Of a DNA stretch of 22,265 nucleotides, positions 2,603 to 22,265 are shown one piece after another. The first letter of the stretch is position 1. Each line of letters opens with the position of its first letter. Origin of the DNA: a virus; the IMG/VR virus record IMGVR_UViG_3300030109_002837, positions 1-22,265 of that record; one strand, 5' to 3'. The translations under genes were made by a program, and so were the position numbers. Under the pieces are notes generated by a model that worked only from the letters and a program-made list of their open reading frames with translations, was not told the DNA's origin and did not search any database.

Positions 2603-3742
2603 ATGGCAAGAGATTATGTACGAACAATAACAGATATGGAAAGATACTACTACGGTGCAGGTAACGCAATGGGTTACTCATACACTGGTAGTGAATTACT
2701 CAAGGCTGACAGCCCTATGCTGTCCACAACAGGCGGAACATACCAAGCAATCTATGGTCGCAAAGTATGGTCACAATTGAACCAAGAGTTTAACGCCTTC
2801 TCAATACTACCTAAGAAACCATGGGACAGAAGCGGATGGCGTGTTATCACTGGCAGACCAAATGCTGGTGTTGTACACGGTGGAGTAGCAGAAAACGCAA
2901 CACTACCTGAGACTGTAAAACCTACTTTCCAGCACATTGCTGCAAAGCCAAAGACAATCGCACACACATTCGATATGTCTGAGACAGCAATCTTCCTTGC
3001 AGACAAGGATGACGGAATGGGAGACATTCGCTCAGTTCTTAAAGAAGAAATGGGTAAGCACCACGCAGAAATGGTCAACAAGATGCTTCTTGTAGACACA
3101 GACTCACCTGTTGGAAACAACTTCGAGTCACTAGACAGAGTTACTGCAAGCCACTCAACTATGGGTGGAGACACAAACTGGGTGACCGCAGCAGCAGATT
3201 TAGACATCTATTCAATAGACAGGTCTGCTAACTCATGGTCAGATGCAGAAACCAACCTTGGTACTGCTGGAGCAGATAGAGTTCTATCTCTAGACCAAAT
3301 CGATGACCTATTCCAAAAGATATGGGTACGTGGTGGAAATCCAAAAGTTATGCTAACTGGATATGACACATTGATGAGACTACAACAACTATTGCAGTCA
3401 CAGCAGAGATTCATGGAAGAGAAGAGAGTAACACCAACCTACAACGGTGTAAAGGGTGTTCCCGGTATGGAAGCAGGTTTCATAGTTGCAACATACAACG
3501 GAGTACCAATCATACCAACAAAGGATATGGATGACGATGGTAACCTATCAAAAATCTACTACCTAGATACAGATTACCTGCACTTTAGCACAGCAATACC
3601 AACACAGTACTTCGAGAGTGGAATCGAGACTGGTGACCCATTCGCAATTAACAGACTAGGCCAAGAGGGACTATACCGAACCATGGGTGAAGTATGGACA
3701 ACTTTCTTTGGTGCACAAGGGAGCATTCGTAACCTAAAGTGA
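2603..3742 (+). CDS. Major capsid protein, HK97 fold
   Basis: 379 aa, the usual size for an HK97-fold capsid subunit. The N-terminal region (residues 1-40) is Tyr/Gly-rich and short. It is followed by the expected N-arm/E-loop region (YGRKVWSQLNQEFNAFSILP, then WDRSGWRVITGR and the Gly/Ala-rich VVHGGVAENATLPET) and a long P-domain helix around RSVLKEEMGKHHAEMVNKMLL. The second half has the A-domain pattern ending in ETGDPFAINRLGQEGLYRTMGEVW. Position directly after the protease-scaffold gene agrees. ATG 2603 has a perfect GGAGG at 2590-2594 with 8 bases spacing, one of the strongest ribosome sites in the window, as expected for the most abundant virion protein. Subunits would form the icosahedral shell; whether they crosslink cannot be judged from sequence. 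Confidence 0.9.
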   Translation: MARDYVRTITDMERYYYGAGNAMGYSYTGSELLKADSPMLSTTGGTYQAIYGRKVWSQLNQEFNAFSILPKKPWDRSGWRVITGRPNAGVVHGGVAENATLPETVKPTFQHIAAKPKTIAHTFDMSETAIFLADKDDGMGDIRSVLKEEMGKHHAEMVNKMLLVDTDSPVGNNFESLDRVTASHSTMGGDTNWVTAAADLDIYSIDRSANSWSDAETNLGTAGADRVLSLDQIDDLFQKIWVRGGNPKVMLTGYDTLMRLQQLLQSQQRFMEEKRVTPTYNGVKGVPGMEAGFIVATYNGVPIIPTKDMDDDGNLSKIYYLDTDYLHFSTAIPTQYFESGIETGDPFAINRLGQEGLYRTMGEVWTTFFGAQGSIRNLK

Positions 3743-5453: not shown

Positions 5454-7018
5454 TGCCACAAGTGTTTAGTCCGGGTGAAGGAGAAACAAGACCACTTGAC
5501 CCAACAGCGATTGTCTATACAACAGCACAAAAGGTTGCTGACTTATTAGATATAGGACCACAAGAAGCAATAGCAGCCTCTTACAACAGTGATGCAGATG
5601 CAGTGTATGTCACTGGTAATGATTACAGAAACATCGGATTCTCAGTTGGAGACTCGATATTAGTTTATTCAGATGCTGACCCATTGGGTTTTGAGCGTAC
5701 TATTACTGCAATAACAAGTTCAATCAATGGTGTAAAACTAGCATTCAGTGGTAACGTGACTGCGGCAGATTATCAGACTGCTGACAATACATACATTCAG
5801 AATCAAGCCTCATTTTCAAACGGAAGAACAAGAGGCATTACGAAGAGCAAAGTCGAGAGCATCATACTTCGTATGCAAGACCACATAGATAACAAGACTC
5901 ACAATGCTTGGAGACCATATTTAGTACAAGCGGAATACATCAACTTTGATACTTACAAACCATATCGTCGTAGGTACTATACAGACTACGTTGGTACTAG
6001 CCCGTTGCTATTTAGAAACGTACAACAAGTCTTGAGGTTAGAATTATGGCAAGGAGATGATTACAGAGAAATCGCTGCTGCTGAGGCTAGAATCATATTA
6101 CCCGATGATGTTCGTGCATTGAGTGGTTCTTTAGTCGTCTCACCCGGCAATGGTAGTGCAGGTTTACTCACAATCGGCACTGGTACTGCGAATTGGCGCG
6201 CTGACTTTGATAAGACAACAACAGCACAGAATCTTGCTGATTTAATCAATAAAGAAGATAGGGTTAGCAAGACTGAAGTTACCTTCTCACCTAACTTTAC
6301 ATTAGAGGGTAGCACATCTAATGTTGCTGTACACAACGAGTTTATTGCAACTGCTAATTCTGACTATGGTACTGGTAGAGTAAAAATTACTAGCATGAGA
6401 CAAACCTCTGCCGGAGAGTCTTGCTCCATTGTTAGCACTGATTCTAACATAGAAATTAATCAAACACAATCTAACAACGCTACATTCTCTAGTTTGGATA
6501 GCACTACTATTACAGTAGATAGCACTGCTGGGTTTGCTAACGCAGGTGTAGTAGTAGATGCCAGTGGTGATGTGTTCAGATACACAGGCAAAACAGATAC
6601 AACATTTACTGGTTGCGTAATAGTGGTAGGTTCTGCCCTGTCTGATATCGCCGGAACTCTCACTCAACATATTCTACAAGTCGATTTGCATGGTGGTAGT
6701 GGTAGTGGAGACCAAGGTAGATTACGTGACTGGTGGATAGACCATGAGATGGGTATTATCTACTTCAACAATTCATATCCATTCTTTGAGTGGAACGCCA
6801 TTAAGACATCATACATTTATGGTGAGAGATATGTAGATAAAGCGATAGAGGATATTTGTACAAAGATGGTGGCTATCGATTTACTAATGAGTGATGACCG
6901 AAGTGTGTTGATACCCGAAGGTACACAAAACGTTGACTTAGCGTCTAAAATACAATTATATCGAGCAGATATAGATAGAACATTCCCACGTTACATAGAG
7001 GTGGTAACCTTTGAGTGA
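5453..7018 (+). CDS. Head-tail connector/adaptor with inserted beta domains
   Basis: 521 aa, large for an adaptor. GAGGAGG at 5436-5442 precedes ATG 5453. The N-terminus has a helical connector start (TTAQKVADLLDIGPQEA), a beta insert (residues about 50-120), then a basic helix region (TRGITKSKVESIILRMQDHI) followed by NAWRPYLVQAEYINFD and the Arg/Tyr-rich YKPYRRRYYTDY. Residues about 225-405 look like one or more inserted beta modules, including the common virion motif TITVDSTAGF...FRYTGKTDTTFTGC (6500-6615). After this the connector core resumes (DWWIDHEMGIIYFNN, then YVDKAIEDICTKMVAIDLLM). Alternating helical core and beta insertions, together with position between capsid and tail genes, point to the neck ring below the portal. 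Family assignment is by pattern and context only. Confidence 0.6.
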   Translation: MPQVFSPGEGETRPLDPTAIVYTTAQKVADLLDIGPQEAIAASYNSDADAVYVTGNDYRNIGFSVGDSILVYSDADPLGFERTITAITSSINGVKLAFSGNVTAADYQTADNTYIQNQASFSNGRTRGITKSKVESIILRMQDHIDNKTHNAWRPYLVQAEYINFDTYKPYRRRYYTDYVGTSPLLFRNVQQVLRLELWQGDDYREIAAAEARIILPDDVRALSGSLVVSPGNGSAGLLTIGTGTANWRADFDKTTTAQNLADLINKEDRVSKTEVTFSPNFTLEGSTSNVAVHNEFIATANSDYGTGRVKITSMRQTSAGESCSIVSTDSNIEINQTQSNNATFSSLDSTTITVDSTAGFANAGVVVDASGDVFRYTGKTDTTFTGCVIVVGSALSDIAGTLTQHILQVDLHGGSGSGDQGRLRDWWIDHEMGIIYFNNSYPFFEWNAIKTSYIYGERYVDKAIEDICTKMVAIDLLMSDDRSVLIPEGTQNVDLASKIQLYRADIDRTFPRYIEVVTFE

Positions 7019-10095: not shown

Positions 10096-10839
10096 GTGTT
10101 ACCAACTGCTGTAAAGAGAGTTCAATTCTACTCTCGAAACTCTCATGAAAACTATGTCTATTGGTTAATCGACAATGCTGGTATACCATACACGGAAGAG
10201 TTGTTCAAGACTAATTCTAGAAATGTAGTAGATTCTATGGTTATGAGAATGATTAACGAAGGTAATACAATTACCGAAGAAACTGTACTCGCACCTATCG
10301 CTAGAGAAATAGAAGATACACCTGTTGAAACAATCGTCGAAAAAATAGAGGAAGAAGAACCTTCATGGGTAGGGGCCGCTAGGGATGTACTAGGCGACGT
10401 AGTAGAAGACGTAGTTGAAGAAACTCCTGTAGAAGATGTTGTTGAGATTGTTGAGAACGTTATCGAAGATACAGTGGGAATTACTATTGACAGACCTGTC
10501 AAAAATATTGTTGAAGATGAACAAGAAGTGATGATAGTCCCCGAAGTAGACAACCCATTCGGTGGTGAAGTGGACTACAATTCTTTCACTGTAAGAGAAC
10601 TCCAAAAAGAATGTAAAGCGCGTGGAATCACTATTCGTGGCACTAAATCTGAGGTAGTGTTAAGGCTACGACACGATGACGCGGGTATTGTCGAGCAACC
10701 GACACAAGGTGTAACAGAAGCCCACTCGCAAGAGTCTGCCGATGTAACGCCGGATGCCCCCTCGCAAGAGGCTGCAACCGAGGAAGTGACAACAGATGAC
10801 GATAGTAGACAAACAGAACTTACTGACGAAGAAGAGTGA
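10096..10839 (+). CDS. SAP-domain protein with acidic repeat linker, tail gene cluster
   Basis: 247 aa. GTG 10096 is set by TGAGGTGA overlapping the previous stop, with 5-base spacing. The N-terminus (1-75) is a compact domain opening with KRVQFYSRNSHENYVYWL. Residues about 85-150 are an acidic Val/Glu/Asp repeat (VVEDVVEETPVEDVVEIVEN). Residues about 162-196 are a SAP motif (FTVRELQKECKARGITIRGT then KSEVVLRL), normally a small DNA-binding or docking helix pair. The C-terminus is disordered, with two SQE-containing repeats. It overlaps the chaperone gene by 44 bases. SAP domains near tail chaperone genes are seen in other viruses, but the function here is unknown; a tail-assembly helper or minor virion protein is possible. 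Confidence 0.65.
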   Translation: MLPTAVKRVQFYSRNSHENYVYWLIDNAGIPYTEELFKTNSRNVVDSMVMRMINEGNTITEETVLAPIAREIEDTPVETIVEKIEEEEPSWVGAARDVLGDVVEDVVEETPVEDVVEIVENVIEDTVGITIDRPVKNIVEDEQEVMIVPEVDNPFGGEVDYNSFTVRELQKECKARGITIRGTKSEVVLRLRHDDAGIVEQPTQGVTEAHSQESADVTPDAPSQEAATEEVTTDDDSRQTELTDEEE

Positions 10840-11158
10840 ACAACGACACGAAATCCGTGTAGACAAAGAAAATACTGATATGATAATGGAAGTATGGGTT
10901 AGAGAATTAACTTTCTTTGACGTACAACAAGCCGCACAAAGTATGTTTCAGATGGATGGCGATGACATATCGCTAAACCTTGAAGGGTATTGGCGTTACG
11001 CATTTTCAAACTGGGTTGTAAGAACAAACCCGGAACTTACCGTAGACGACATGATGAATCTAAATGCATATGTCGGTCAACAGATAGCCTCTCTATTACC
11101 AAAGCCGGATGAACTGGCGGAGGCAATGCAGGGGGGTTTTACGAAAGCGAACAACTGA
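10796..11158 (+). CDS. Tail assembly chaperone, short (G-type) form
   Basis: 120 aa, ending at TGA 11156-11158. ATG 10796 follows GAGGAAGTGA (10780-10789) and overlaps the SAP gene by 44 bases in another frame. The central part (MEVWVRELTFFDVQQAAQSM, then YWRYAFSNWVVRTNPELTVDD and a C-terminal helix AYVGQQIASLLPKP) has the size and helical pattern of the lambda gpG class that helps the tape measure fold and recruits tail tube subunits. The gene lies directly before the tape measure gene and ends just past a slippery heptamer, which is the hallmark of this class. Identification is by position, frameshift signal and general pattern. Confidence 0.75.
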   Translation: MTIVDKQNLLTKKSEQRHEIRVDKENTDMIMEVWVRELTFFDVQQAAQSMFQMDGDDISLNLEGYWRYAFSNWVVRTNPELTVDDMMNLNAYVGQQIASLLPKPDELAEAMQGGFTKANN

Positions 11159-11165
11159 GGGTTCG
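11134..11165 (+). promoter_or_regulatory. Programmed -1 ribosomal frameshift site
   Basis: The heptamer G GGT TTT at 11134-11140 is in the right phase for X XXY YYZ slippage from the chaperone frame (codons GGT TTT) to GGG TTT in the -1 frame. Seven bases further on, CGAAC (11148-11152) can pair with GTTCG (11161-11165) around an 8-base loop that contains the zero-frame TGA; this is a modest possible stimulator. The -1 frame is open from 11113 to the TAA at 11431-11433. Confidence 0.8.
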
Positions 11166-11433
11166 GCAATTTCTAAAGAAAAAGGTAATTAAAAATCCTG
11201 ACGATTTAGAGATGCAGATGCAGTTGTTCGCATACATCGTAGCGAAACATTACAGCATATCACTACATGAGGTATACCATATGAGCGAGGCCGTCTTCAA
11301 ACAATCTCTATCATGGGCACTTGCTGTCAATGAAGAAGAACGCCTAGCAGAGAAGAAACAAGACCTAGAAAATAGAACAGATAGCACTGATGTTGTAGAG
11401 TTTGATTATTCATTTTTAGAGGGAGAAGATTAA
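11140..11433 (+). CDS. Tail assembly chaperone, T-domain reached by -1 frameshift (GT-type fusion)
   Basis: After slippage at 11134-11140 the ribosome would read YESEQLRVRQFLKKKVIKNP and continue for 97 codons to TAA 11431-11433, giving a fusion of about 212 aa (115 residues of the G part plus this T part). The T part is helical: MQMQLFAYIVAKHYSISLHE, then HMSEAVFKQSLSWALAVNEE and an acidic C-terminus. An independent start at ATG 11212 has no ribosome site and would discard an apparently meaningful N-terminal stretch, so the fusion is preferred. In lambda the GT fusion binds the tape measure protein, which is the very next gene here (start 11435). Confidence 0.75.
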   Translation, partial: YESEQLRVRQFLKKKVIKNPDDLEMQMQLFAYIVAKHYSISLHEVYHMSEAVFKQSLSWALAVNEEERLAEKKQDLENRTDSTDVVEFDYSFLEGED

Positions 11434-11434
11434 C

Positions 11435-12280
11435 ATGGCACTAGGAGCATTACTCAATTCATTAGCCAGCGTATCTAGTAGCCTTAGTGTCATAGGTAGC
11501 ACAATGAGCACACTAGGCAGTGTAGCCAGTAGTATAGGTGAAGCACTTGGTAAAGCCTTCAGTTTTGCTGGTAAAGTAGCGAGAAAAATATTTAATGAAA
11601 TAAGGGAGGCTTTCGAGCCTTTGACAGAGGCTTTGAGGTCTGCATGGAACGCTACCGTTATGCCGATATGGAATCTAATGAAAGAGGGAATGATGTTTTG
11701 GGTTAACATATTCAAAGGTGAATGGGGCAAGGCATTAGATAATGTCAAAACTATATGGAATGGTACTTTTGGTAAACTATGGTCGGGACTAAAAGCAGGT
11801 GCTACCTTAGCCTTTAACGGAATCAAAACCATTGGAACACTCGTTTTTAATGGTATGAGCGTTATATTTGATGCTACCATAGGTAGAGCATTCAGTGGTC
11901 TTAAGTCAGCAGCACAAAGTGTATTTGATGTAATTGGCAGTGCTTGGGATACAGTTACAGGTGTAATGCAATCTGTGTATGATAAGACACTAGGTAAGAT
12001 ATTCGATAAAATAGGTGGCGCTCTTAAGGGCATATTTAATTTTGGCAAATCAGTAGTTGGTGGAGTCAAAGATTTAGGAAGCAGTGCCATAAACGCTGTC
12101 ACTGGTGGCGGTGGGGGTGGAGATTCACCTAGTGGTGGTGGAGGCCACACTTTCAACATGACATTCAATCTAAGCGGTCTCACAGACCGTACTGATAAAA
12201 GACAGTTCGCAAGAGAAATCAGCGACTTAGTGCAACAAGAAATGTCTCGTAACATTGGTGGTGTAGGTAGAGGTAGGTGA
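11435..12280 (+). CDS. Tape measure protein, short
   Basis: 281 aa, very short for a tape measure (commonly 600 to over 1,000 aa). ATG 11435 follows the chaperone stop by one base; GGGAGAA upstream. The N-terminal half is Ser/Ala/Gly-rich helix (LASVSSSLSVIGSTMSTLGS), followed by amphipathic helices with Trp (RSAWNATVMPIWNLMKEGMM) and repeated hydrophobic units with a WNGTFGKLWSGLK/FDVIGSAWDTVTG rhythm that resembles tape measure repeats. A Gly-rich linker (GGGGGG...GGGG, about 225-240) separates the C-terminal piece NMTFNLSGLTDRTDKRQFA followed by REISDLVQQEM, which is a typical tape measure C-terminal motif. It would set tail length and be ejected with the DNA; the length suggests a short tail. 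Confidence 0.8.
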   Translation: MALGALLNSLASVSSSLSVIGSTMSTLGSVASSIGEALGKAFSFAGKVARKIFNEIREAFEPLTEALRSAWNATVMPIWNLMKEGMMFWVNIFKGEWGKALDNVKTIWNGTFGKLWSGLKAGATLAFNGIKTIGTLVFNGMSVIFDATIGRAFSGLKSAAQSVFDVIGSAWDTVTGVMQSVYDKTLGKIFDKIGGALKGIFNFGKSVVGGVKDLGSSAINAVTGGGGGGDSPSGGGGHTFNMTFNLSGLTDRTDKRQFAREISDLVQQEMSRNIGGVGRGR

Positions 12281-13428: not shown

Positions 13429-16400
13429 ATGACAGTAATTAGCCGTAAGACACATGGCTTCTTTTTCAACGGTATCACTGACAGTATCATAGTTCCTGAA
13501 GGTGACTTTAGCGAATTAGGGCATAGAACCACAAGAGGGACTGACGACGTACGAGTTATCCTATCTGAAAATGCACCATTGTCTACACGTGATAGCGTAG
13601 CAACATCGGGTATTTTCAATAAGAATCTAACAATAGAAGCGTGGGTAATGCCTGATTGTGGCGGTACAATAATAGAGAAAGAGGGTCAATACAAACTTTC
13701 ACTCGGTAATATAGACACACCCGGTCCAGCGACTTTTGAGGTATTCATGGAGGGTGAAGGTGGTGAAGAAAGATATTATTTAACCACAGCGACACTAGCA
13801 ACAGACAGATACGAAGGCACTGTCTATCCCCATATTGAATATCAAGGTGTACAGGACTCATACAATAGATTTGTTGGAAGTAGAGACGATGCGACTGAAC
13901 TAAACAAAAACCATAGACCTTTGATTCATGTAGTAGCAACGGTAAGAACCACAGCCATAGAACTATACATTAACGGGGAGTTAGTTGTAAGACAATCTAT
14001 CAAAGACAGAGATTTAGCGCTAAAGCCTTCTACCAAGCAAACATACATTGGAGGTAAAGGTGGTAAGTTTAGAGGTACGATGGAAGGCATTCATCTTAAT
14101 GCGTCATTCAAGACTTCAATGATAGAAGGTAACTCTCCGTTATCGGATAGTGATACTTTACTTCTATACAGATTTGAAGAGCCTATCGCTCCTGTTGAAA
14201 CAGTATATACGTTTTCTTCGATTGCAAATAATAGCACGCAGATAGATGGACAAAATGTAACTGTGTCACAAATTAGTATGAGTACAGCCGATGCTATTGA
14301 TTTAGCCAAAAAACTCACTGGTTTGTCTAGTGTGTCAGGTAACTATGTATTTTGTAAAGATGTAACAGGAGTACACAACTATTCAAGCGGAGATTACAAA
14401 GTACTAGATTCTTTATCGGGTACTCTTGTTGAACATTCTGTTTCACATACACCATATAACCTTCTAATCAATCCTGATGGAATTGACCCGGATACAAAAG
14501 CACCAAACAACAAACCGCCTGAAAGAGTACGTTTGCTTAGTATTAATGTCGGTACAGGCAATATGCTAGTATCTAGTATTCATCTCGATTTTGCTACATC
14601 TGTAAATGGTTTGCGTAGCGCATTGCACACTAGAACCTCAGGTGTAGACAATCACTTTGTTGTGGTGAGTGCGGATATGTTGCTTGATTCTTCAACTGGT
14701 AATCCGTATCAACCACCTCATTATACGTCCCAAATTATAGATAGGACAGGACAAATGATAATTGATGAAAGTGACTTTGAAAATCATGGATTTGTTTATT
14801 CTAGTGCAATTGCCACAACTACATCTGATACAAACAATCCCTTTGCAGTAGTATGGCCTACTAGTGTAAGTGAGGATTTCCAAATAGGCCATAGCGGTAG
14901 ACACATTAAGAATCATGTCGAAGGACATTCTTTCTTACGTATGTTGCCAAAGGCTATTGATGAAATAATAGACCAACAGGGGAATGGTAGTGCAGATATC
15001 GTTGATGTGATGTATAGTGATATGCACAAAGGTGTAGAGAAGCAAGTTACCGTAAATAGTCTAGTAGATGTGTATAGAGATTTTAGCGATGTGGTAATAG
15101 ACAATGTTGTTAGTTCTAGTACAGTAACCGCAGCATATAATTCTTACAATGGAACAGCAAGCCCACCTGCTGGTAAAAGGAAACTAATTGCAATAGGTGG
15201 TCCTGATTTTGATTACACTCCCTTTGCGCTAAAAGGCCCGATACCGCAATATAACAAATATGATGCTAATAACGATGAGACCCATCACGATAGTAATATT
15301 AGAGATTATCATGTTACTCCATCTAAAGAAAGTAGAGTTGCTATATTACATGTACCTAGATTGGCAGACTTAACACCTACGTTAGCGCCTTATGTAGAAA
15401 TACATTACAATGCCATTGATTTAACAGGAGCGAGTATAAGTAAAACATTTACAGATGCTACGTGTGATTACAATAACGACCCAACTATTACCATGGATAA
15501 TACGGCCTTTGTAATACCGGGTATGGCTGTGTCAGGCACTGGTATACCTACTGGTGCTACTGTCTCTAGCGTTACTAATGGAACTACATTTGAATTAAGT
15601 GCGTCGACCACTGGTGGCTCTAAAACAAACCAAACACTAACCTTCACTACTGTTGTTCAACCTCTACTAATGGTAGAGAAAACCGTACCTTCATCTGATA
15701 CATTAGTAACAGGTTCCGAATATGTCTATGATGCTATAATCAACTCAATTGCATCAGGGCATACTATCTATGCTCCGGGTGGATACATAGATGTGTACGC
15801 ATCTGATTTTGGTATAGATAGCCCAATAGTACAAGAACACGGTTTAGTGGGCGATACATCAGAAGGATATTCTGCCGATACGGAAGTAGACGAGTCTTTG
15901 ACACCTGCTAATTACACTCCTAGAAACAATACGGATTCTGTACAAAACCGTACACCACAAGCCATAATTGAATCTGTGAGTACAAGTGGTGTGCATAACT
16001 CTGCATTCAACAGATTGTATCTAAATAAAATAGACCAAACTAAGACTTTGACCGATAAAGGTAGTTACTCTAGAATTGCTCCTGATGTAGTATTAAGCAG
16101 TGGTTCGGCAGGGCAATTCGATACTGGAACTGTATCATCTGCATCACCTATACACGAAACATTTGACATAATAGACAATCACATTTTAGCAGATGCAAAC
16201 GATGCTGATTTTAGAATCTTCATTCAACCTACTGACCGAAGAAGAAGTATGCAATTGCGTAATGTTAATTTGTCTACAAGATTCAATAGGGCAACTGTGC
16301 TTTACTTAATGAGTAGAGCGAAAGTAAGGTCGATTGAAGAGAGTGTAGGAGATGAAGGTGGTTACACCACATTGAGTTGTATAGGCGTAGGAGATAGCCT

Positions 16401-19400
16401 GATATCTCGTTCAATAGATTTTACTGGCAAAGGTAGCCCTGACTCGCATATAGTCAAGGAGATAGAACCTAATGCACCTGTTGTCACTGTTACACTTGGT
16501 GGTCCGGGTCAAGGCGCTATGGATACTAGGCCAGTATTCCAGCGCAGTATGTTAGCACATGAAGCATATTCTACACGCAGGTCGTACGCTGTAAGTGTGA
16601 CTAGGTTGAATGTGCCTACGGGTGCTAGTAGTGTAGGCGATACTGTCGGAACATTATACGTTAAACCTCTTAATAATGAAAGTGAAGATTTAGCAAGTTG
16701 GGGTACGTATGGGTTTACTCGCTATGGAAGAGTGTACTTTGTAGACGGTAGTAACGCTAGATATAGTAGTAAAACAGGTAACACATTCGTATTTACATTA
16801 CAAAGTTTAGGTAGCGGATATTATGTTGGCTCGGATGGTACTGAGTACACAACCATACAAAACTTGCTACGCGCAAACGGTATGATGGAAGGATATAATA
16901 GTACGGGGACGGACATATACGCTAACTTTACGATATATAATGAACCTAATTTTGGTGAAGAAAGTAAATTAGAAAATGGTACTACTGTAAACGATAGAAT
17001 GCATCAGTCTATGAATGACGTACAACATGATTACCAATTAGGTACTCAGTACGCTAGTACTAGAGCAGTTGCAGAAATACCTTTTTTCTCTAAACAATTT
17101 TTTGCCCCATCTGTCGGTCCTGATAACGCATTTAAGATACATATAGACGCAACACACACTGCACATACTTACAATCCTAGCCCAGTTGGTAGAAGATTTA
17201 TAGATACAGAACCAGCAGATAGAGAAGCGCAATCTGCTTATTCAATAGCGTTAGCAAATAGAGAATATGTCAATTCTACATTTATCACCGAATATAGAAG
17301 AGTATCGAATACAGATAAAAGACTCTACGTGAATGACCCAAGCGTGTTCCCTGAGTCACATACTGATACAGACGAATACAAAGGCTTCGCTAATGACGTT
17401 TATCGATATAGAAAAGTTTGGTTGGCTAACGGAAAATGGGCTTTTTATACTAATGCACCTGCTACTGACAAGTATCTAGCGTTAGCAAATGACGACATGA
17501 CATACGGTCATAGCGAAGGTTTCTTTGAAGACTTAGCCGCAGGGCAACCAGTCTATCTAGGGGGTGTAGGGTTTGAAGAAGGTAATACACCTATGGCATC
17601 TGATGAAATAACCCCATCATCAGACTTTGAGAATAGAGATGAATATTACTATGATACCGCTAGTGTAAAAACACAAGGGGGTAATGTAGATTACGGATTA
17701 CGTCAGTATGTTAGCGCAGTTGAGTTTAAGGCCGGACCTGAAAGTAATCCACACGCAGCACAAATACAACCTATGCGTGCTAGTGGTAAGGTGCTTTCTA
17801 CAAAGACAATACCATTATCCGGTGAAGATAAAGCCGTAATTGTAACATTGTCACCTGAGGATTTTGCAAAGTTTCCTGACTTGGGATATGATGTGTTAGC
17901 CAATGCCCCTTCTACTGTTGGAGATTTAGGATACGAAGTACAATACGATGATAATGGCACTACCCACAAGTTCCAATATCACGGTCACATTAAGACACTA
18001 ACTGGTGCAACAATCACAGCAGTGCCTAAAAACAGTATTGTGCTTGTTTACAATACATCAACAGGATTTACCCCAAATAAATATTCTACTGGTGTAGCCA
18101 TCAATAAACCCCTCAGCCCAACATACTACTCATCTAGCACTACTAGTGCTATGCAAGTGGACGGAGTAGATGCTACAACTATCTTTTCAGTAGGTAGTAA
18201 TGTATACGATGCAAATAATAATCTTGAGGGCGTAGTAACAGCAGTAGCAGCAACTAGCATAACCATAGGGGCCGGTACAGCATCTCAATTAGCAAACAAT
18301 GCTATTTTACACACAGACGGGTTGCCTGAGGGTGCTAAAATAACATTAGCAAGAAAATGTAGAAGTATTCTCGGTACAGCGATTACAGCAGAAGTTGCTG
18401 ATGGTTCTCAATACTATCGTGAATTGAAGAACAGCCTAAACATCACCGATGTCACAATTACTGCAAATGGAAGCACATCATCTACCATAACTATTGACGG
18501 TGCTAGTGGTAAAAACGTCAATGACCTACATGGTATGAACGTCAAGAAAGGTGATACGCTCTACTATTGGGAAGATACCGGAACGGACAAAATACGAAGA
18601 ATAGGGTTAGTTAGTAGTATTGGTAGTGCTGATGCAAACGGCACTCAAACAGTTACTTTAACTGCTACTGGTCCAATTATTCCATCTAATGCTAAACTTG
18701 CAGTATGGACTGGCGACTATGAAGATAAAGACGCTGTACTAAACGCTACGTGGTTAAATCCATACGCACAAGGTGGATTACGCAACGGTGATACCGTATG
18801 GGCAAATATGTCGTATAACAACCCACATGCGGTTGAGGGTTTGTTTGCTAAGAGTAGAGGTGTGTTGAACGAATCACAAGTATGGAATGCGTTTGATAAT
18901 GGTGCGGGTGAATTAGACACAACTAATCCAAGAGACAGCATACCTTTAGAGAACTTCTTAATTGGCAATACTTGTCTAGAAACTGCAAGAAATTATGCAC
19001 AACATGTCAATAGAACAATTGAAGAAAACTATCTAGCACTTGGACTTACATCGGCACAAGCGCCTGTTGTAGCCTATATCGACCCTTACTTGTCTACTGA
19101 CGAACATGCACGTGTATTACTATACAACGTGGCACATGACAAGGAGTTTATCGCATTTCAAGATATACACATGCAAGTGCAGTCTAGTGCTCAGGCTACA
19201 CAAATAGGTTGGCCTAAAGAGGTTGTAGAAAGCGGTGGTACAACTAGGAGTGCATTACACAAAGTCAACGCTGCGTACAACGGTGCTGGTCCAAGTCCAT
19301 GGACCACTCAAATAGATGTTACAAACGGTTTCTTATCTCAGAACCCATACATACGAAGTACTCAACAATCTAAGTATATCGAAAGTGCTTACGCACACGA

Positions 19401-22265
19401 TTTAGCAAACAGACATACTAGTGACTTAATTGATAGCAGTACTATTGCTAGTTTGGCTACTGCTTTACCAACAGATGGTAGAAAAATAGAGGGTGCTAGA
19501 TTATACGGTAAAGCACACGGTCATCACGTACACACAGGATATTCCTATGGTGGAACAACCAGTGGACTTTCAACAGGATACAGTCTTACGCCTAGAACTA
19601 ACGATTCTGTTGCTTTACATAAGCAAGCAAACGCAAAGCATTCGTTCACTAGAATACCTAGTAGCAACGCAAACTCGTTTGTTAAGAAATTAATAGAACA
19701 TAGAGAAGCAACAACTGGTTGTACGCTAAGAGACCCTTCTACATTCTTTGATACACCTGATGGTACTAGAGTTATACCTGCATTCTTGTGTCTAAAAGGT
19801 ATTAGAAGTTCATCTTTAGATTTGACTAATCATACTGAGAGTAGATTACAACACCTACCGCAATGGAAAGATATGGACTTTGTTAGACGTTTAACATTGG
19901 ATTTAGGTGAGATTAGTCAAAAAGACGATGTTGTAGATACATTGTCTGCAACAGAAGAGGCTGTTAGATTAATTAATCAACACGCTGCACTAAACGGTAG
20001 ACTGTTAACTGGTTCAGCGCATGACCCTTCACCGTTTTGGAATGTAGATAATGGTGACAAGGGTACACACATGGGGTACATACGCGCTCACATAGGTAGA
20101 GAAGTACAAGACCTAAACGGAGATACAGGATACACTATTGTCATTCATAGTACAGTGCCGGGCGCAAGTGGAAGAAACTTCTGTGTGTGGCTAGATAATA
20201 GTAAAGGGCAGAGTGTCTATCAACCTCAATTCTTAGTAGGACATGGCGGGAGATGGCGTAACTTTTGGGCGTTGCCTGACGAAAGAGAGGGTGAAAACAT
20301 GCACCCAGCGCCTATGCCATTAAACAAACATGGTAGACCGTTTGCCCCGATTACCACACTACAACAATACGTTACATCGGTAGAAAGCGGTGAAGAAATA
20401 GAAAGTGTCGTTGAGTTTGAAGATAGTAGCGTATTGAGAGCAGTGTCTGATTCTATAAGTGGTAAGAGTCATAACACAATAAACACAGAATCTTTAGACA
20501 TTAAAGGTTCATCATCTTCATTAGTCAAGGGTTTAAGAGTTGGTAAAAAGGCTATCTCAAGAATAAACTTTGGGGGATTAGTAGCAAGCGGTGTACCGGG
20601 ATTTGCGCCCGATGTCGGAACTTGGGGTTTTGGTAAAATAGGTGAGACTAAGTTCAATAATAGGTATGGCGCATTTAACACTCAAGGCACTGCTCATACT
20701 GGTTTAGATTATTCAAATCATGTGCCAACATCAAACATAATTTCTGATAATATAGGTAACGGACAATTATACGGTTTTAGATTCAGAGACAACTTAGGTG
20801 TAGAAAACGGTATTAGATACATTTATCGTAAGATAGGTGAATCGTTTGCAAACAGTAATACTACATTACCTTCCACTATTGAAGATGAAGTATGCGTTTT
20901 CTTCGACGACAGGGATGTGGGACAGGGTGGATTTACAATAGGTAAACACATGCATGGTGTCGGTGATGCGACAGGTAGATTAGATACAGATGCAAGTGGT
21001 GTCACAGAAACATTGCAGTATTGGAAGGGCGCTAGATGGAGAGGCGTTAGTGCCCCAAATGCTACACTTCTCGTTAGTGCTACTGAGGATACCAGCGCTA
21101 ACACATTAGTAATAGCCTTTGACCAAACGCCATATACAAGCGCTAACACCCCACTTAATTCTGCTTTTAATGTCAAAGGGGATATTTTGGGTTACTTGGG
21201 ATTCCCGAAGAAAAATGGGATTATACAAATTACAGATTATGACGCGACGGCTGATGTTGGGATTACAGTATCTTATACATCAAGAGACCACACTACATTT
21301 TACGGTTGTACTGGGTTAGTAGCATTACCGGATGAGGTATTAATTGCTTCTGTATTAAATTGGACTACGCTTGTAACAGATGAGTTAATCGCTGCTGCAA
21401 CTGCTGCTGCAATAAACGCAGGTAATGAAGTAAATACAGAAGAAGGGCATGTGTTTGATTGTAGAGAGATGTATGCGACAGATGGTCGTACATTCGGTGA
21501 ATGGGGTGTGAAAGAAGATGCAATACGAATTAGAGCCTATAACACTCAAAGTCCGATAGTACCTCTCAGTCAATCTTATACTAGCGTTGTGAAGAGAGAT
21601 TACGGTATCCACGCTTCACACTTAGAGTTTGGCGAAGTGAGAAGAGTAGACAAGGTAACAAACGGTGAATGGGACTTCGATACTAGTGAAAGTGCTGGTC
21701 ATGGCACAAGACCAGTAATTGATACAAATATAGATGCTAGTCAAGGCATCGATTGTGGTTATATACCACATACATTACTTGAAATAACTACTGTATCAAA
21801 AGGTCCAAACTCAAACACAGCGTCACCTAATCTAGTTGATTCAACTAATACCCCGATTGATACTACCACTTGGAACGAAGGGCTAAAGGGTATACAATTT
21901 ACACGTTCATCCGGTGACCACATACTACCGATGATTGATAATCCCCATGTGCACTTTGGAAGCAGTCAGAGTAGTTGGACTACCGAAGTGACACTAAGTG
22001 ACAACGTAGACCCATTCCTGATACCATCGGGTGCAACGGCAAGCAACGTAATATTGCCAGTAGGCGAAAGAGTAACCGTGTGGTTAGGAGACTATCCTAT
22101 TGAGGCTGAGAGTCAAACAGGCTCTAATCCACGTACTAAAATTAGTTGGTTAACAGCAGATGCGGGAGATAACTTTCCTCAATCTATGGCTAAAGCAAAT
22201 ATATTGCAACGACACAATAACAAAGAGTTCGATGGATTGCGCTCTATTGGTAGCGTATTTTCTGA
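13429..22265 (+). CDS. Giant tail-tip/adhesin protein, 3' partial (at least 2,945 aa)
   Basis: A single frame opens at ATG 13429 (GGGGGGAG at 13417-13424 upstream) and stays free of stops to the window edge. Residues about 60-230 form a LamG/concanavalin-like lectin fold (LTIEAWVMP, IIEKEGQYKLSLGN, HVVATVRTTAIELYINGELV, TYIGGKGGKFRGTMEGIHL), a carbohydrate-binding type common at phage tail tips. Residues about 673-740 are the GTGIP module shared with the tail tube. Around 930-1030 comes a conserved-looking region (FRIFIQPTDRRRSMQLRNVN, VTVTLGGPGQGAMDTRP). Further Thr/Ser/Gly-rich beta modules lie near 1565-1625, 1670-1765, 2560-2650 and at the end. An HGHHVH cluster (2030-2035) could bind metal. 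No transmembrane segment or protease motif was recognised. It follows a distal-tail candidate, so it likely forms the tail tip and host-receptor apparatus; the C-terminus is unseen. Confidence 0.85.
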   Translation, partial: MTVISRKTHGFFFNGITDSIIVPEGDFSELGHRTTRGTDDVRVILSENAPLSTRDSVATSGIFNKNLTIEAWVMPDCGGTIIEKEGQYKLSLGNIDTPGPATFEVFMEGEGGEERYYLTTATLATDRYEGTVYPHIEYQGVQDSYNRFVGSRDDATELNKNHRPLIHVVATVRTTAIELYINGELVVRQSIKDRDLALKPSTKQTYIGGKGGKFRGTMEGIHLNASFKTSMIEGNSPLSDSDTLLLYRFEEPIAPVETVYTFSSIANNSTQIDGQNVTVSQISMSTADAIDLAKKLTGLSSVSGNYVFCKDVTGVHNYSSGDYKVLDSLSGTLVEHSVSHTPYNLLINPDGIDPDTKAPNNKPPERVRLLSINVGTGNMLVSSIHLDFATSVNGLRSALHTRTSGVDNHFVVVSADMLLDSSTGNPYQPPHYTSQIIDRTGQMIIDESDFENHGFVYSSAIATTTSDTNNPFAVVWPTSVSEDFQIGHSGRHIKNHVEGHSFLRMLPKAIDEIIDQQGNGSADIVDVMYSDMHKGVEKQVTVNSLVDVYRDFSDVVIDNVVSSSTVTAAYNSYNGTASPPAGKRKLIAIGGPDFDYTPFALKGPIPQYNKYDANNDETHHDSNIRDYHVTPSKESRVAILHVPRLADLTPTLAPYVEIHYNAIDLTGASISKTFTDATCDYNNDPTITMDNTAFVIPGMAVSGTGIPTGATVSSVTNGTTFELSASTTGGSKTNQTLTFTTVVQPLLMVEKTVPSSDTLVTGSEYVYDAIINSIASGHTIYAPGGYIDVYASDFGIDSPIVQEHGLVGDTSEGYSADTEVDESLTPANYTPRNNTDSVQNRTPQAIIESVSTSGVHNSAFNRLYLNKIDQTKTLTDKGSYSRIAPDVVLSSGSAGQFDTGTVSSASPIHETFDIIDNHILADANDADFRIFIQPTDRRRSMQLRNVNLSTRFNRATVLYLMSRAKVRSIEESVGDEGGYTTLSCIGVGDSLISRSIDFTGKGSPDSHIVKEIEPNAPVVTVTLGGPGQGAMDTRPVFQRSMLAHEAYSTRRSYAVSVTRLNVPTGASSVGDTVGTLYVKPLNNESEDLASWGTYGFTRYGRVYFVDGSNARYSSKTGNTFVFTLQSLGSGYYVGSDGTEYTTIQNLLRANGMMEGYNSTGTDIYANFTIYNEPNFGEESKLENGTTVNDRMHQSMNDVQHDYQLGTQYASTRAVAEIPFFSKQFFAPSVGPDNAFKIHIDATHTAHTYNPSPVGRRFIDTEPADREAQSAYSIALANREYVNSTFITEYRRVSNTDKRLYVNDPSVFPESHTDTDEYKGFANDVYRYRKVWLANGKWAFYTNAPATDKYLALANDDMTYGHSEGFFEDLAAGQPVYLGGVGFEEGNTPMASDEITPSSDFENRDEYYYDTASVKTQGGNVDYGLRQYVSAVEFKAGPESNPHAAQIQPMRASGKVLSTKTIPLSGEDKAVIVTLSPEDFAKFPDLGYDVLANAPSTVGDLGYEVQYDDNGTTHKFQYHGHIKTLTGATITAVPKNSIVLVYNTSTGFTPNKYSTGVAINKPLSPTYYSSSTTSAMQVDGVDATTIFSVGSNVYDANNNLEGVVTAVAATSITIGAGTASQLANNAILHTDGLPEGAKITLARKCRSILGTAITAEVADGSQYYRELKNSLNITDVTITANGSTSSTITIDGASGKNVNDLHGMNVKKGDTLYYWEDTGTDKIRRIGLVSSIGSADANGTQTVTLTATGPIIPSNAKLAVWTGDYEDKDAVLNATWLNPYAQGGLRNGDTVWANMSYNNPHAVEGLFAKSRGVLNESQVWNAFDNGAGELDTTNPRDSIPLENFLIGNTCLETARNYAQHVNRTIEENYLALGLTSAQAPVVAYIDPYLSTDEHARVLLYNVAHDKEFIAFQDIHMQVQSSAQATQIGWPKEVVESGGTTRSALHKVNAAYNGAGPSPWTTQIDVTNGFLSQNPYIRSTQQSKYIESAYAHDLANRHTSDLIDSSTIASLATALPTDGRKIEGARLYGKAHGHHVHTGYSYGGTTSGLSTGYSLTPRTNDSVALHKQANAKHSFTRIPSSNANSFVKKLIEHREATTGCTLRDPSTFFDTPDGTRVIPAFLCLKGIRSSSLDLTNHTESRLQHLPQWKDMDFVRRLTLDLGEISQKDDVVDTLSATEEAVRLINQHAALNGRLLTGSAHDPSPFWNVDNGDKGTHMGYIRAHIGREVQDLNGDTGYTIVIHSTVPGASGRNFCVWLDNSKGQSVYQPQFLVGHGGRWRNFWALPDEREGENMHPAPMPLNKHGRPFAPITTLQQYVTSVESGEEIESVVEFEDSSVLRAVSDSISGKSHNTINTESLDIKGSSSSLVKGLRVGKKAISRINFGGLVASGVPGFAPDVGTWGFGKIGETKFNNRYGAFNTQGTAHTGLDYSNHVPTSNIISDNIGNGQLYGFRFRDNLGVENGIRYIYRKIGESFANSNTTLPSTIEDEVCVFFDDRDVGQGGFTIGKHMHGVGDATGRLDTDASGVTETLQYWKGARWRGVSAPNATLLVSATEDTSANTLVIAFDQTPYTSANTPLNSAFNVKGDILGYLGFPKKNGIIQITDYDATADVGITVSYTSRDHTTFYGCTGLVALPDEVLIASVLNWTTLVTDELIAAATAAAINAGNEVNTEEGHVFDCREMYATDGRTFGEWGVKEDAIRIRAYNTQSPIVPLSQSYTSVVKRDYGIHASHLEFGEVRRVDKVTNGEWDFDTSESAGHGTRPVIDTNIDASQGIDCGYIPHTLLEITTVSKGPNSNTASPNLVDSTNTPIDTTTWNEGLKGIQFTRSSGDHILPMIDNPHVHFGSSQSSWTTEVTLSDNVDPFLIPSGATASNVILPVGERVTVWLGDYPIEAESQTGSNPRTKISWLTADAGDNFPQSMAKANILQRHNNKEFDGLRSIGSVFS
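13621..14115 (+). other. LamG/concanavalin-like lectin domain
   Basis: This part of the giant protein shows the usual order of such domains: LTIEAWV, IIEKEGQYKLSLG, a long loop, HVVATVRTTAIELYINGELV and YIGGKGGKFRGTMEGIHL. The family binds glycans; here it would sit at the N-terminal, tube-proximal end of the tail-tip protein. Confidence 0.7.
15445..15650 (+). other. GTGIP beta module in giant tail-tip protein
   Basis: Encodes TFTDATCDYNNDPTIT, MAVSGTGIPTGATVSSV, TTFELSASTTGGSKTNQ and TLTF in the same order as the module at 7900-8097 of the tail tube gene. The match is at protein level; nucleotide identity is partial. Confidence 0.65.

Follow-up and report, generated by a model that had tools for sequence, protein, structure and literature searches.

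The window analyzed here, a 22,265-base fragment of an uncultured marine virus (an IMG/VR record), very probably carries a tail assembly chaperone pair of the G/GT type. Its two frames would be joined by a -1 slip at GGG-GGT-TTT (11132-11140), and this slip would be set by an upstream GGAGG, the G/T run itself and a downstream stem. The reading rests on related sequences. Their comparison demonstrates that both frames are coding, that selection acts on the slip region and that the stem covaries. The features of the region are the following.

10796..11158, + strand: gene G, zero frame, predicted short tail assembly chaperone (120 aa)
11119..11123, + strand: Shine-Dalgarno-like (SD-like) GGAGG, 10 nt 5' of the heptamer, constrained and widely kept
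11131..11137, + strand: overlapping in-frame heptamer G GGG GGT; a shift here would give a peptide identical to that of a shift at 11134
11134..11140, + strand: slippery heptamer G GGT TTT, proposed -1 shift site, in phase with ORF 10796-11158
11137..11433, + strand: T domain, -1 frame, entered by the proposed shift (frame open from 11113)
11141..11146, + strand: spacer of 6 nt between heptamer and stem
11147..11157, + strand: stem 5' arm (GCGAACAACTG)
11156..11158, + strand: zero-frame stop TGA of G (TGA in 70/72 relatives)
11221..11231, + strand: stem 3' arm (CAGTTGTTCGC)
11435..12280, + strand: tape-measure-like gene, directly 3' (281 aa)

We collected 72 distinct close relatives, which were thinned at 93% identity to 44. 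A second group of relatives comprises 40 distinct loci (L214-L256).

Coding frames and slip site

The second frame lies at -1, with a similar length, in 72/72 distinct close relatives. It is also at -1 in all 40 distinct relatives of the second group. The initial annotation had described a -1 frame open at 11113-11433, a zero frame ending near the slip and a product of about 212 aa. The ORF check bears out the first. The zero frame indeed closes with the TGA at 11156-11158, and a tandem shift gives a computed product of 115 + 97 = 212 aa. The peptide spanning the predicted G-T junction is ...MQGGFYESEQLR. The -1 frame is kept even before the zero-frame stop, with Tyr in 43/44 thinned relatives. 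Likewise, where the zero frame exchanges N and S (AAC to AGC, AAC to AGT), the amino acid of the -1 frame stays the same. The low synonymous values just past the slip are thus explained by coding in the -1 frame.

The heptamer GGGTTTT is present at 11134-11140 and correctly phased, as previously proposed. We considered the in-frame X XXY YYZ heptamers of the 17 main ORFs in the window. Just two of them lead into a -1 frame that stays open over 30 codons or more: GGGGGGT at 11131-11137 (100 codons) and GGGTTTT at 11134-11140 (99). The heptamer alone is unremarkable, with 4 copies of GGGTTTT in the window versus 2.0 expected.

The expected conservation of both frames and of the canonical heptamer in related genomes holds for the frames and only in part for the heptamer. 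The exact form GGGTTTT is present in 35/72 distinct relatives, GGGGTTT in 34/72, and the heptamer is broken in 3. At the codon level, the slip region reads GGG GGT TTT in 34 relatives, GGG GGG TTT in 34 and GGG GAT TTT in 2. TCG GGT TTT and AGT GGT TTT occur in one relative each. Across these relatives, the conserved signal is GGG-GGK-TTT and not the exact heptamer. The two loci with GGG GAT TTT (L107 and L110) also present ATGA at the zero-frame stop, and possibly belong to a lineage moving from frameshifting to restart.

In the thinned relatives, the Gly codon is GGG in 42/42 and TTT is kept in 44/44. GGG represents only 7.7% of the glycine codons in the window. Synonymous pair differences among the 44 amount to 1 versus 527 expected at GGG and 0 versus 369 expected at TTT (observed/expected = 0.00 at both). 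GGK and the following codon show synonymous variation near expectation. A second low spot is found at the GCG-GAG codons, which hold the GGAG/GGAGG (observed/expected 0.47 and 0.13). GGAGG is present in 45/72 relatives, and GGAG or GAGG in 15 more. An SD-like element upstream is an optional stimulator of -1 signals, and here it is present at 10 nt. SD-like sequences also precede most genes of the window.

Downstream stem and the possibility of restart

An 11-bp stem (11147-11157 with 11221-11231) closes a 63-nt loop. In the window, the predicted folding energy of the 123 nt starting at 11138 is -35 kcal/mol (z -5.15). The stem begins 6 nt past the heptamer, inside the 5-9 nt range of canonical -1 signals. 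At least 9 of its 11 pairs are found at exactly the same offset in 57/72 relatives. These 57 loci (50 distinct rows) form the covariation set. In it, 97.3% of cells are paired, compared with 31-41% in slid partner controls. Choosing the loci by pairing inflates this percentage, and the matching of changes less so. Cells changed on both sides number 33 versus 10.8 in shuffles. This count, like the stem covariation score, is reached by 0/500 shuffles.

Read in the -1 frame, each arm encodes Gln-Leu, and the arm pair CAA-CTG/CAG-TTG swaps in step with CAG-TTG/CAA-CTG, that is, by paired synonymous changes. Traced by parsimony over a tree of gene G, the double changes number about five for A-U to G-C and six for C-G/U-A.

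The remaining 15/72 relatives lack the stem at the exact offset. In eleven of them another stem, 6 to 10 bp long, begins 5-6 nt past TTT, and the other 4 (L124-L127) show weak folds only. Folding the alignment of the 44 thinned relatives as a whole returned no structure, since it included divergent lineages that have other stems; the signal emerged once the set was limited to the 57 loci that share one offset. The search of Rfam gave no match.

The initial annotation had drawn a smaller hairpin of 5 bp (11148-11152 with 11161-11165). Such a pairing is possible in the window, yet only 8/44 thinned relatives form all 5 pairs. We rejected it, since it shows no covariation and competes with the better supported 11-bp stem. 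That annotation had missed three elements: the 11-bp stem, the SD-like GGAGG (11119-11123) and the overlapping heptamer at 11131.

The T domain could also be made as a separate protein by translational coupling. Ribosomes would stop at the TGA and restart at an overlapping NTG in the -1 frame. NTGA is present in 70/72 relatives, with TTG in 27, GTG in 11 and ATG in 8 (46/72 together), and L107 and L110 pair a damaged heptamer with ATGA. However, CTG stands at that position in the window and in 23 others. Restart would leave the conserved upstream -1 frame (Y-E/Q-x-E-Q) untranslated, and it accounts for neither the constraint on GGG and TTT nor the stem 6 nt past them. Relatives whose second frame has its own start and ribosome site, or in which the heptamer is lost, had been named as evidence against frameshifting. 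An ATG or GTG does overlap the stop in 19/72, and half carry GGGGTTT, yet the -1 frame is conserved upstream of that start and both GGG and TTT persist. We consider restart in place of frameshifting very unlikely. It may nevertheless add to expression in ATGA or GTGA lineages.

Encoded protein and kinship of the virus

By its predicted fold, G is a tail assembly chaperone. The AlphaFold model of G (pLDDT 83) has as its top two solved-structure matches YqbN (3klu, Z 5.9) and the HK97 tail assembly chaperone (2ob9, Z 4.3); these Z values are moderate and not decisive alone. A Foldseek search of G against the PDB showed nothing significant at first, and the chaperones surfaced on a second look. 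In the viral library, G matches the HHTV-2 tail assembly chaperone (E 3.5e-5), and tail chaperones dominate its named matches. T is modeled as all-helical (pLDDT 85), with no clear named structural match.

At the sequence level, the resemblance is weak. Neither G nor T has a significant match in sequence families, the search of solved structures by sequence gave no match, and tblastn of G in named phages found none. The PHROG matches of G are weak (best chaperone, E 0.0053). Its similarity to the HVTV-1 chaperone is also weak (E 2e-4, probability 47%).

The gene that follows had been taken for the tape measure. ORF 11435-12280 indeed matches mostly PHROG tape-measure families, the best of these with E 9.5e-11. 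Its single top match is an endolysin-labelled PHROG (E 1.5e-15). With 281 aa versus 480 aa in HVTV-1, this gene would predict a very short tail, unless neighbouring genes contribute. A SAP-domain protein gene (10096-10839) lies just 5' of G and overlaps the G start by 44 nt. Downstream, the ORF 13429-22263 (2945 codons, open at the window end) probably encodes a giant tail or surface protein.

A true -1 frameshift with a product other than a tail chaperone would agree with the empty sequence-family searches for G and T and with the moderate fold scores. Nevertheless, phage-like YqbN and then the HK97 tail chaperone head the solved-structure matches, the viral-library names are mostly tail chaperones, and the gene adjoins the tape measure as in HVTV-1. 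We regard such a product as highly improbable.

The nearest named viruses by capsid protein are the haloarchaeal HVTV-1, HCTV-1 and HCTV-5. The capsid gene (2603-3742) has nine matching records in the phage collection. Eight are haloarchaeal (HCTV-1, HCTV-5, HVTV-1 and kin, about 33%) and one is a Methanofastidiosa virus (29%). Beside the capsid protease, ORF 49-1161 shows a weak ATP-dependent DNA ligase domain (E 3.7e-6). A family B DNA polymerase is present in 10/10 related long contigs, and PCNA_N and MCM were found in none of the ten. Capsids of the marine magroviruses group with HVTV-1-like capsids (PMC8651126). Compared by description, the capsid kinship of the window and the family B DNA polymerase of the related contigs fit these magroviruses. 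Two scans of genome contigs for a link to a Poseidoniales host gave no relative. In the open-licence literature, magrovirus and frameshift co-occur only through a reference-list mention.

Slippage mechanism and comparison with known systems

From these patterns we infer a ribosomal shift at this place, its frequency and the roles of G and GT. Most ribosomes would read the zero frame to the stop at 11156 and produce G (120 aa). Some would slip back one base at 11132-11140, enter the -1 frame and produce a G-T fusion of ~212 aa. The rate would be set by three mRNA elements: the GGAGG, which would pair with the 3' end of 16S rRNA from 10 nt upstream, the G/T run and the 11-bp stem. The ribosome would be held above the slip site by the SD-like element on one side and the stem on the other. 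By analogy with lambda, G would coat the tape measure protein and the T part would recruit tail tube subunits.

On G GGT TTT both tRNAs could re-pair, whereas on G GGG TTT only the P-site glycine tRNA would re-pair fully. Half of the relatives carry GGG-GGG-TTT, with no clean A-site re-pairing, so the step shared by the main variants is probably a slip of the glycine tRNA in the P site.

The second group presents another junction. Its G is clearly homologous to that of the window group (probability 99.9%). It shows STT TTT CGG at the junction, with CGG in 39 of the 40 distinct loci. A 10-bp stem lies 6 nt past TTT, the spacing of the window, and is 95% paired. The base 5' of STT varies, which implies a -1 frame without constraint upstream and thus places the junction at STT-TTT. 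No canonical heptamer fits there. The simplest reading would be a TTT tRNA slipping over T TTT. Dual coding may be the reason why CGG is conserved.

The fused frame could instead arise by transcriptional slippage, in which RNA polymerase adds a G within the conserved run of 5 to 7 G in part of the mRNA and one extra base gives the same frame, but this is the least probable alternative, since about a third of the relatives have only 5 G, the process needs neither an upstream SD-like element nor a stem at ribosomal spacing, and the second group keeps the same stem spacing with a T5 run.

Returning to ribosomal frameshifting, we tentatively consider, with rather less than even confidence, a signal of three parts in which a single P-site tRNA slip is essential and the spacing and the stem are kept. 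The A-site half would then be free to vary, as in GGG-GGT-TTT, GGG-GGG-TTT and STT-TTT-CGG. If true, archaeal and bacterial ribosomes would respond to the same stimulators, both upstream and downstream.

G/GT frameshifting is already known, and haloarchaeal viruses have also been suggested to use it (PMC5009743, PMC8211752). For HVTV-1, HCTV-1, HCTV-2 and HCTV-5, -1 shifts are listed in reviews (PMC5009743, PMC8211752). According to a 2021 review, a -1 frameshift has been demonstrated once in archaea, and a few are proposed for viruses of haloarchaea (PMC8211752). The present case is unusual in how strong the comparative evidence is and in how much the slip site varies. A signal with compensatory stem evolution is kept in more than 100 distinct viruses related to archaeal viruses. 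The lineage offers natural variants of every signal element, ready constructs for probing slippage of the archaeal ribosome. In addition, gene models that split the chaperone in two get corrected.

Joined chaperone genes are annotated in HVTV-1, HCTV-1, HCTV-2 and HCTV-5. An overlapping gene pair stands directly before the tape measure in the window, HVTV-1, HCTV-2 and HCTV-5, whereas HCTV-1 has two extra genes between. In the Druskaviridae HVTV-1 (129/130) and HCTV-5 (128/129), two chaperone frames are likewise joined at -1 before the tape measure. Compared with the window, their G and T show weak colinear similarity, and the sequences are hardly alignable. Their heptamer is G GGA AAG instead of the GGG-GGK-TTT of the window lineage, and no unusually stable downstream fold was found there (z about -0.8), in contrast with the stem of the window. 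Nevertheless, HVTV-1 (L211, locus 5950-5971) has GGAGG exactly 10 nt 5' of its heptamer, the spacing of the window. HCTV-1 presents GGGGAG 8 nt 5' of its own.

The slippery run of lambda begins with GGG. Lambda G/GT also resembles the window in its short G, its -1 extension T and a site before the tape measure (PMC5009743). However, the sequence and the heptamer differ, the window has a covarying stem and an SD-like element, and its virus is related to archaeal tailed viruses. As in the window, E. coli dnaX combines an upstream SD, a slippery site and a downstream stem-loop (PMC5009743). Conversely, dnaX is another gene with another slip sequence, while the shift in the window would yield the longer product and the loop of its stem has 63 nt. 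The resemblance to lambda G/GT, suggested in the initial annotation, is supported by the chaperone fold, the gene order of HVTV-1 and the HCTV viruses, the -1 relation, the slip-site constraint and the covarying stem. As judged from the sequences, a new variant of the G/GT frameshift in an uncultured lineage is well supported.
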